Part shown: in pieces, positions 43,603 through 49,001 of the stretch
How positions within the stretch are numbered: position 1 is the stretch's first letter
Layout of the letters: each line of letters starts with the position of its first letter
DNA from: an uncultured Rhodospirillales bacterium
Lineage (GTDB): Bacteria; Pseudomonadota; Alphaproteobacteria; RF32; CAG-239
Assembly: GCA_902763185.1 (NCBI GenBank)
Contig: CACWQT010000009.1
Location: forward strand, 1-64,000
Reading direction: 5' to 3'
DNA length: 64,000 nt
Translations under genes and position numbers: made by a program
Notes under the pieces: generated by a model
What the model was told of the DNA's origin: nothing
Database searches by the model: none
The model's input: only the letters and a program-made list of their open reading frames with translations

Positions 43603-43689
43603 GCGCTTGTGGCGGAACTGGTAGACGCTGCAGACTTAAAATCTGTTGGGAGCAATCCCGTGCCGGTTCGATTCCGGCCTAGCGCACCA
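43603..43689 (+). tRNA. tRNA-Leu (anticodon TAA), CCA encoded
   Basis: 87 bases folding as a class II tRNA: acceptor GCGCTTG / CTAGCGC (one mismatch), anticodon stem GCAGA/TCTGT with loop CTTAAAA (anticodon TAA), a long variable arm TTGGGAGCAATCCC, T-arm CCGGTTCGATTCCGG and CCA at 43687-43689. Confidence 0.93.
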
Positions 43690-43728
43690 ATAAAAAAACA
43701 GGGATTTATTCCCTGTTTTTTTATTGGT
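43686..43728 (+). terminator. Palindromic terminator after tRNA-Leu
   Basis: A perfect 19-bp inverted repeat (43686-43704 and 43710-43728) with a TTTAT loop. It starts inside the tRNA CCA end (ACCAAT) and ends with ATTGGT. Confidence 0.8.
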
Positions 43729-44057
43729 AGGATAAACAGTATATCGAAGCGGCACGGGTGCCGGTTCGAACCGTAGCTCGCAGGCGGATATCAGACGCCG
43801 ATTGCCGAAAGACAAGCGAGCAAGGTCGGCGTTAAGAAAACTTTTGAAGAAAGTTTTTAGTCATTCCGGCCTAGCGCACCAATAAAAAAAGAGAGCCGTT
43901 AAGGTTCTCTTTTTTTATTGGTATAATAGATTGATAAGCGAATTGATACGGTGTTGGTTCGATTACCAGCGAAAGGCAGACGATGGTATGTCGGTCAGCG
44001 AAGCCGATGAGTGCCCTTGTGACGAAGTCACTCCGGTCTAACGTATCAATAAAAAAA
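43729..44057 (+). repeat. Degenerate tandem copies of the tRNA-Leu 3' end
   Basis: Two units follow the tRNA. Each has the T-arm 5' half (GTGCCGGTTCGA at 43758-43769; GTGTTGGTTCGA at 43951-43962), an insert of 93 or 67 bases in the T-loop, then a copy of the last 19 tRNA bases with CCA plus an A-run (43863-43890, identical to 43671-43698 over 28 bases; 44030-44057 with five mismatches, all transitions). A 20-bp palindrome (43878-43922) separates the units. The first insert contains interlaced complementary words GCTCGC/GCGAGC and ACGCCGA/TCGGCGT. Confidence 0.85.
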
Positions 44058-44083
44058 CACGGTAAGAGGTATCTTACCGTGTT
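44056..44083 (-). terminator. Terminator of the ACP-like orphan
   Basis: AACACGGTAAGA / TCTTACCGTGTT around GGTA: a 12-bp perfect stem; on the minus strand it ends in a T run that is itself the A-run of the last tRNA-end copy. Confidence 0.8.
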
Positions 44084-48692: not shown

Positions 48693-49001
48693 ATGAAAAA
48701 GACTTTATTTTGCTTGTTAGCACTATTTGTGCTTAGTGGTTGTGAAACTGTTTCTAAATACAGCACGGCCAATGCCGGTGATTCGGTAAAAACGAGAATG
48801 CGCGCTTGCTTGGTCAGCGAAGCAACTGCTAAATTCCAAGCCGGAACACTGTTCTCTAAAGGAATTTCTGCGATGTCTGATGAGTTGGTCTCAACTTGTA
48901 TGCAAAAGCTTGCTTTGCAGTCAGCCGGTATCAGCCAAGAATCGCAATCGACAGCGGCGACGATTATACAGAATTTGCAAAATTTCGGCACCGCCCAATA
49001 A
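48693..49001 (+). CDS. Small lipoprotein
   Basis: 102 aa. Signal MKKTLFCLLALFVLSGC with lipobox LSGC and lipidated Cys17, then a helical mature part (SVKTRMRACLVSEATAKFQ) with two Cys. It fits a small periplasmic or outer-membrane lipoprotein. GAGGG before ATG. A 104-bp palindromic element begins 2 bases after the stop. Confidence 0.75.
   Translation: MKKTLFCLLALFVLSGCETVSKYSTANAGDSVKTRMRACLVSEATAKFQAGTLFSKGISAMSDELVSTCMQKLALQSAGISQESQSTAATIIQNLQNFGTAQ

Follow-up and report, generated by a model that had tools for sequence, protein, structure and literature searches.

The tRNA-linked repeats (TLRs) of Escherichia coli, which include rtT of tyrT, have been described by Egan and Landy (1978) and Rudd (1999; both via PMC8144298). 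Strain K-12 carries 22 of them at ten loci, and their 3′ 18–19 bp are identical to the upstream RNA (PMC8144298). Although TLRs were first reported in 1978, most still lack a known function, and an early claim of a TLR phenotype was retracted (PMC8144298). RrA, RrB, and RrF, which bind both Hfq and CsrA in vitro, are read-through sRNAs flanked by two terminators, and a cut by RNase E has been proposed for such read-through TLR sRNAs (PMC8144298). The RtT RNAs, which possess a tandem G-A motif (PMC7657543), were detected on Northern blots in Actinobacillus, adjoining tRNA-Asn and tRNA-Lys genes (PMC4986893). Integrative elements that use tRNA genes as sites (phages, ICEs, and genomic islands) likewise produce a second copy of the tRNA 3′ end, starting at the T-loop, but they carry an integrase and are bound to one target, neither of which was seen with the units described here.

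Units behind tRNA-Leu(UAA)

The sole tRNA gene within the window (the whole analysed stretch of DNA, 64 kb in length, at whose edge, positions 1–80, lies the 3′ part of a 5S rRNA gene) is that for tRNA-Leu(UAA). Behind this gene, the first-pass annotation had noticed a 28-nt repeat, and the segment 43671–43698 is indeed identical to 43863–43890 (ATTCCGGCCTAGCGCACCAATAAAAAAA). The third copy (44030–44057) differs at five positions, every one a transition, and the T-arm is interrupted by 93 nt (43770–43862) and 67 nt (43963–44029), as had been claimed. When up to three mismatches were allowed, the tail 18-mer was found twice, compared to 0.02 expected occurrences in shuffled sequence, which rules out chance for the tRNA-Leu tail repeats. 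Of the two origins offered for the locus, the tandem repeat based on a tRNA end is the correct reading of the units. Not contained in that annotation were the terminators at the tRNA ends, an antisense copy of the T-arm, a conserved core in the 67-nt insert, and the presence of the same architecture at many tRNAs. The locus is composed of the following features:

43603–43689, + strand: tRNA-Leu(UAA) gene, CCA encoded (ARAGORN; Rfam tRNA, 55 bits)
43686–43728, + strand: terminator 1, palindrome ACCAATAAAAAAACAGGGA / TCCCTGTTTTTTTATTGGT, beginning within the tRNA end (19-nt arms, 100% complementary)
43743–43758, − strand: unit 1, antisense T-arm copy (94% complementary to 43657–43672)
43758–43769, + strand: unit 1, copy of the T-arm 5′ half, GTGCCGGTTCGA (exact copy of 43660–43671, 12/12)
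43770–43862, + strand: unit 1 core, 93 nt, probably a divergent three-way junction (weak match in the right register to the core model R1)
43863–43881, + strand: unit 1 tail, the final 19 nt of tRNA-Leu including CCA (19/19 identical)
43878–43922, + strand: terminator 2 (20-nt arms, 95% complementary)
43951–43962, + strand: unit 2, copy of the T-arm 5′ half, GTGTTGGTTCGA (10/12 identical)
43961–44021, + strand: unit 2 core, conserved three-way junction, type A (R1, 60.2 bits, E 2.4e-14 over the window; R1 E-values are rough, and this copy is among the model's building sequences)
44019–44031, + strand: unit 2, hairpin P4, GTGACGAAGTCAC (read off the sequence and present in the predicted fold)
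44030–44048, + strand: unit 2 tail, tRNA 3′ end with five transitions (14/19 identical)
about 44057–44082, + strand: terminator 3, inverted repeat ACACGGTAAGA / TCTTACCGTGT (from the sequence)

Each copy of the tRNA end thus continues into the palindrome of an intrinsic terminator, and the stretch 43657–43758 is self-complementary (80%, E 1.9e-17). As read from the loci, tRNA-CCA and a terminator precede the unit, which consists of an antisense T-arm (e.g., GGATTTGAACCCC), a short loop, the 5′ half of the T-arm (GGGGTTCGA), a core beginning with CTAC, and the 3′ half of the T-arm together with the acceptor strand and CCA, and ends in the next terminator. The spacing between tail repeats is only 150–200 nt.

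The flanks of the units correspond to the adjoining tRNA. The tail resembled the adjoining tRNA more closely than any other isotype in 60 of 65 cases, and in 57 of 67 cases the antisense T-arm fitted that tRNA better than it fitted 95% of the others. Tail identity per position ranges from 0.80 to 0.94 over all 19 nt including CCA, with perfect tails in 57 of 109 units. A per-position test restricted the antisense copy to the T-arm, the acceptor part being at background; this result ruled out another possibility that had been considered, a long palindrome derived from the entire tRNA end. The antisense segment and the T-arm are arranged as mirror images around the terminator, with a difference of 0.2 ± 3.4 nt and 90% of the cases within 3 nt. 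A pattern search in 136 genomes retrieved no units that lack the core.

Structure and distribution of the RNA core

Because the full T-arm-to-tail alignment (A1) was poor in its 3′ part, an alignment of 41 cores (A2) was used instead; the 41 sequences from which model R1 was built include the window copy. In A2, four helices form a three-way junction in which 87.8% of the cells pair and 13 of 16 pairs have changes on both sides. The covariation score is 0.342, as compared to 0.126 in shuffled alignments and at most 0.06 for slid structures, and the covarying helices are P2, P3, and P5. Among 81 distinct cores, most of them from other assemblies, two-sided cells numbered 134 versus 45 in shuffles, but these counts lean towards the structure because the alignment was fitted to R1. 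Helix P5 consists of Watson–Crick pairs or tandem G-A, and helix P6 contains a conserved U-G pair. Since U-G and tandem G-A would not pair on the opposite strand, a core that acts as RNA of the tRNA strand is favored. The 93-nt insert of unit 1 is, judging from its sequence, probably a divergent core: with filters off, R1 matches 43778–43821 with 7.1 bits and a rough E-value of 0.087, and a 6-bp P5 (GCTCGC/GCGAGC) is present. A hammerhead-like motif (CTGATGAG) in one copy was rejected, because it lies within a covarying stem and its sequence varies freely.

Matches to R1 occur in 137 of the 152 genomes of the family and in 15 of its 16 genera. A class-wide sample of 386 genomes contained ten positives: six belong to this family, and the remaining four are spread over three further families. 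Three of these four possess tRNA-adjacent units of the same plan, and the fourth match lies too near a contig end for a tRNA to be visible. A pattern scan of public genomes led to gut and rumen Alphaproteobacteria, including Azospirillum sp. CAG:239, and the core signature had no match in viral contigs. On the named contigs, 67 of 87 core matches are situated 51–266 nt behind a tRNA on the same strand, with 18 anticodons represented. The other 20 are mostly found at contig starts, at gaps, or in distal units; by eye, some unlinked matches were read as following a masked tRNA or as having tRNA tails that mark distal units behind cargo. The genomes are MAGs, and arrays often lie at contig ends.

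The window genome (G000) contains 14 core matches at about ten tRNA loci, with one or two per locus, and another genome (G040) has 18 at about 15 different tRNAs with the flanks matched at each. In the window genome, the 67-nt insert and its surroundings recur behind tRNA-Ser(GGA) and tRNA-Ser(UGA); tRNA-Ala is followed by units that contain a different insert. A query with a Ser unit matched all 18 genomes of the genus, some of these matches comprising the tRNA or terminator part only. A second repeat (CTTGCTYCGTAAGGCTYGCG...) has 22 copies in the window genome, with contigs C4, C5, C6, C8, C11, C15, C18, and C26 among the sites, and replaces the usual core at the T-loop position of some tRNA-Ala, tRNA-Arg, and tRNA-Lys loci (L009, L031, and L053).

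Relation to RtT and a possible function

At E. coli tyrT, tRNA-Tyr is followed by an antisense T-arm (GGAAGGATGAGAACCTTCGA), the T-arm 5′ half (GGTTCGACT; AAGGTTCGACT), the core, and AATCCTTCCCCCACCACCA. The units described here have the order of RtT, from antisense T-arm and T-arm 5′ half over the core to T-arm 3′ half, acceptor strand, and CCA. Like TLRs, which directly follow a tRNA or rRNA gene on the same strand, they stand right behind a tRNA, their tails copy its last 18–19 nt (19/19 in unit 1, 14/19 in unit 2), and they occupy several loci per genome (G000, G040), with one or two units per locus in G000 compared to the one to five that are typical of TLRs. Because of this shared anatomy with tyrT/rtT, the tRNA-Leu units are a new branch of the TLRs, of which Rfam RtT covers one branch. 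In contrast to the E. coli TLRs, they have a different core (the three-way junction with its covarying helices), a strong terminator inside each unit, cargo genes between units, and a spread over about ten (G000) or about 15 (G040) tRNA loci. The RtT model (RF00391) also holds an outer stem of antisense T-arm and T-arm 3′ half together with the tRNA tail, and shares the tandem G-A motif with P5. RrA, RrB, and RrF of the E. coli rrn operons are comparable as TLRs between two terminators whose read-through product terminates in duplicated 5S 3′ sequence, but they are attached to 5S rRNA; binding of CsrA and Hfq is on record for these RNAs.

The RtT covariance model (gathering threshold 45 bits) had no matches in the window genome and none in ten alphaproteobacterial unit loci at E-values up to 5–10, and Rfam scans of ten unit loci with lax thresholds yielded tRNA and chance matches only. 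R1 scored the E. coli rtT with a non-significant 6 bits. A profile of the E. coli core placed 9 of its 17 matches in alphaproteobacterial cores, versus at most 3 in 30 block shuffles; none of these matches is significant singly, and their number may hint at a remote link between the cores. That the RtT model is blind to the units described here speaks against the reading as TLRs, and common descent with rtT would therefore rest on the anatomy and this weak profile signal.

In two genomes from outside the class but within the same phylum, units behind tRNA-Arg and tRNA-Ser were recognized by RtT with E about 1e-5, and one in a third genome by eye; the matching of flanks thus extends beyond the class. 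Two such units (L285, 1481–1622; L288, 1411–1551) score 42 bits, just below the Rfam cut-off of 45, so that the RtT family is probably too narrowly drawn. A phylum-wide search for the pattern of antisense T-arm plus T-arm gave 28 positive genomes, mostly false and caused by the reverse strand of tRNA-Ser genes, with three real units among them (L285, L286, and L288). Rfam sX4 was seen to overlap tRNA-Ser and its trailer. In the rrnB unit of E. coli K-12 (L322, 4171600–4172200, between T1 and T2), where the upstream RNA is 5S, GGATTTGAAC / GCGGATTTGAAC resembles an antisense T-arm, and this TLR may be derived from a tRNA unit.

We consider it likely that the units are TLR-type genes for small structured RNAs, which are transcribed by terminator read-through and cut at the duplicated tRNA end. 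RNA polymerase passing terminator 1 would transcribe the unit, whose RNA would fold into the hairpin of antisense T-arm and T-arm, the three-way-junction core, and hairpin P4. The tRNA-processing enzymes could then set the 3′ end of this RNA at the duplicated tRNA end (...CCA, then terminator). The product would be a short RNA whose amount tracks the transcription of the tRNA, and might have a role as growth-coupled regulatory RNA. Some observations do not fit easily: terminator 1 looks strong, the acceptor strand of the tail has no pairing partner inside the unit, and the tail of unit 2 is decayed whereas its core is not.

The patterns described above suggest that arrays grow by tandem duplication of the stretch from the T-arm 3′ half to the core, that the core can be copied between tRNA loci with the flanks being re-matched to the new tRNA, and that recombination between the direct repeats would remove units, leaving an intact tRNA and no scar. 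It is plausible that the distal copy at tRNA-Leu is the oldest, as proposed in the first-pass annotation, but unit duplication also expands arrays.

Gene turnover and alternative origins

The first-pass annotation had proposed to compare the tRNA-Leu locus in sister genomes, and had named repeats fixed in all relatives as an outcome that speaks against its reading. The locus varies: across the genus, 1 of 14 genomes, that of the window, has units at tRNA-Leu(UAA), and different genes lie behind the tRNA. In G001, a terminator and a unit-like spacer stretch are followed by a gene of the same 109-aa family, and in G004 and G014 the window's genes at 48693 and 49693 directly follow the tRNA. This other gene content in the sister genomes marks 43730 to about 49690 as a variable island, whose genes include those for the 109-aa protein, an SH3-NERD protein, an ASCH protein, an endonuclease/exonuclease/phosphatase, and two GNATs. 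Among seven island ORFs scanned with Pfam, none is an integrase or recombinase.

Genes are also found between two units of one tRNA. At a tRNA-Pro of G017 (L055, 749–2426), such cargo consists of a MunI-type restriction enzyme, an MT-A70 methylase, and a small HTH regulator. Other loci contain ORFs of 135 aa (L043), 378 and 109 aa (L176), 266 aa (L265), and, behind tRNA-Leu, 197 aa (L162); apart from the MunI locus, cargo ORFs measure 100 to 378 aa. This cargo indicates that gene turnover at unit sites is real. Its borders are variable: they follow P2 or lie within P4, the tail, or the terminator. For this reason, we favor use of the repeats by ordinary recombination over a dedicated cassette system. 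Behind tRNA-Ser(CGA) (L114), the terminator loop contains an insertion of about 2.7 kb, which carries NUDIX- and radical-SAM-like genes and is bounded by copies of TGAACTGTCCCCGGAAAGTTGGACAGTTCA; it resembles a further mobile element, with the terminator as its target.

The cargo raises the question whether the units serve as attachment sites, at the DNA level, for an integron-like or cassette system, in which the T-loop would be the anchor, the folded single strand the site, and genes would be captured between units. Such a system would also account for the coincidence of the unit ends with the T-loop, a common crossover site. We nevertheless regard it as unlikely, because integrons have a fixed recombination point whereas the cargo borders have none, no integrase was found among the scanned ORFs of the window island, and the conserved U-G and sheared G-A pairs favor RNA. 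Moreover, homologous recombination between direct repeats of 180 nt can account for the gain and loss of cargo.

The patchy presence at tRNA-Leu, the tandem arrays, and the similarity of units at different tRNAs of one genome could alternatively reflect a selfish mini-element without a cellular function, which multiplies by copying the ends of tRNAs and keeps its structure for its own spread. In comparisons of 63-nt sequences, the nearest neighbor of a core belonged to another tRNA of the same genome in 15.5 cases versus 4.1 expected. However, it belonged to the same tRNA in another genome in 21.5 cases versus 6.9 expected, so that units are also inherited locus by locus across genera. An antisense segment (CGAAGCGGCAC) common to tRNA-Leu units of several contigs and genera (the window, G040, and L162) likewise points to inheritance at this locus, followed by loss. 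Since the core persists in nearly all genomes of the family despite easy scarless loss, we deem a functionless element improbable.

A further reading, to which we give only a slim chance, takes TLRs as self-tailoring mobile RNA elements, whose intermediate would take on the 3′ half and antisense T-arm of the tRNA where it lands, and whose repeats would then serve as a cassette site for defense genes. For example, a core RNA might become attached to the 3′ end of a tRNA and, once copied back, enter the tRNA gene by recombination.

The first-pass annotation had also offered successive integrations, with phages or islands leaving serial att scars at the T-loop of tRNA-Leu. The direct repeats of the tRNA 3′ end, which start at the T-loop, and the variable genes behind the tRNA agree with this proposal. 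The inserts, however, are not random sequence but one conserved and covarying RNA core, and units without it were not encountered. Because this core follows tRNAs of many kinds and the flanks are re-matched every time, a site-specific integrase is unfit as an explanation; the scanned island ORFs and the viral contigs provided no sign of one or of the core, respectively. As a general account, serial integration is refuted by the conserved core and very improbable; it survives for the cargo only. Duplicated tRNA 3′ ends alone are hence no proof of an integrated phage.

Simple replication slippage of tRNA end and terminator, which are duplicated together and nearly identical in recent arrays, accounts for array expansion only; it is refuted as the sole cause and hardly credible as such, because it can yield neither the antisense T-arm nor the same core at unrelated tRNAs, and because core-less units were absent from 136 genomes.

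With the units read as TLRs, a whole family of gut Alphaproteobacteria carries a second well-defined branch of these repeats. It offers a covarying core, the rule that flanks match their own tRNA, and many gains and losses, and thereby comparative data that are absent from the E. coli copies. It can now be tested whether the units give rise to an RNA that is cleaved at its tRNA-like end, how units are re-matched to a new tRNA, and whether they help genes to settle behind tRNAs.
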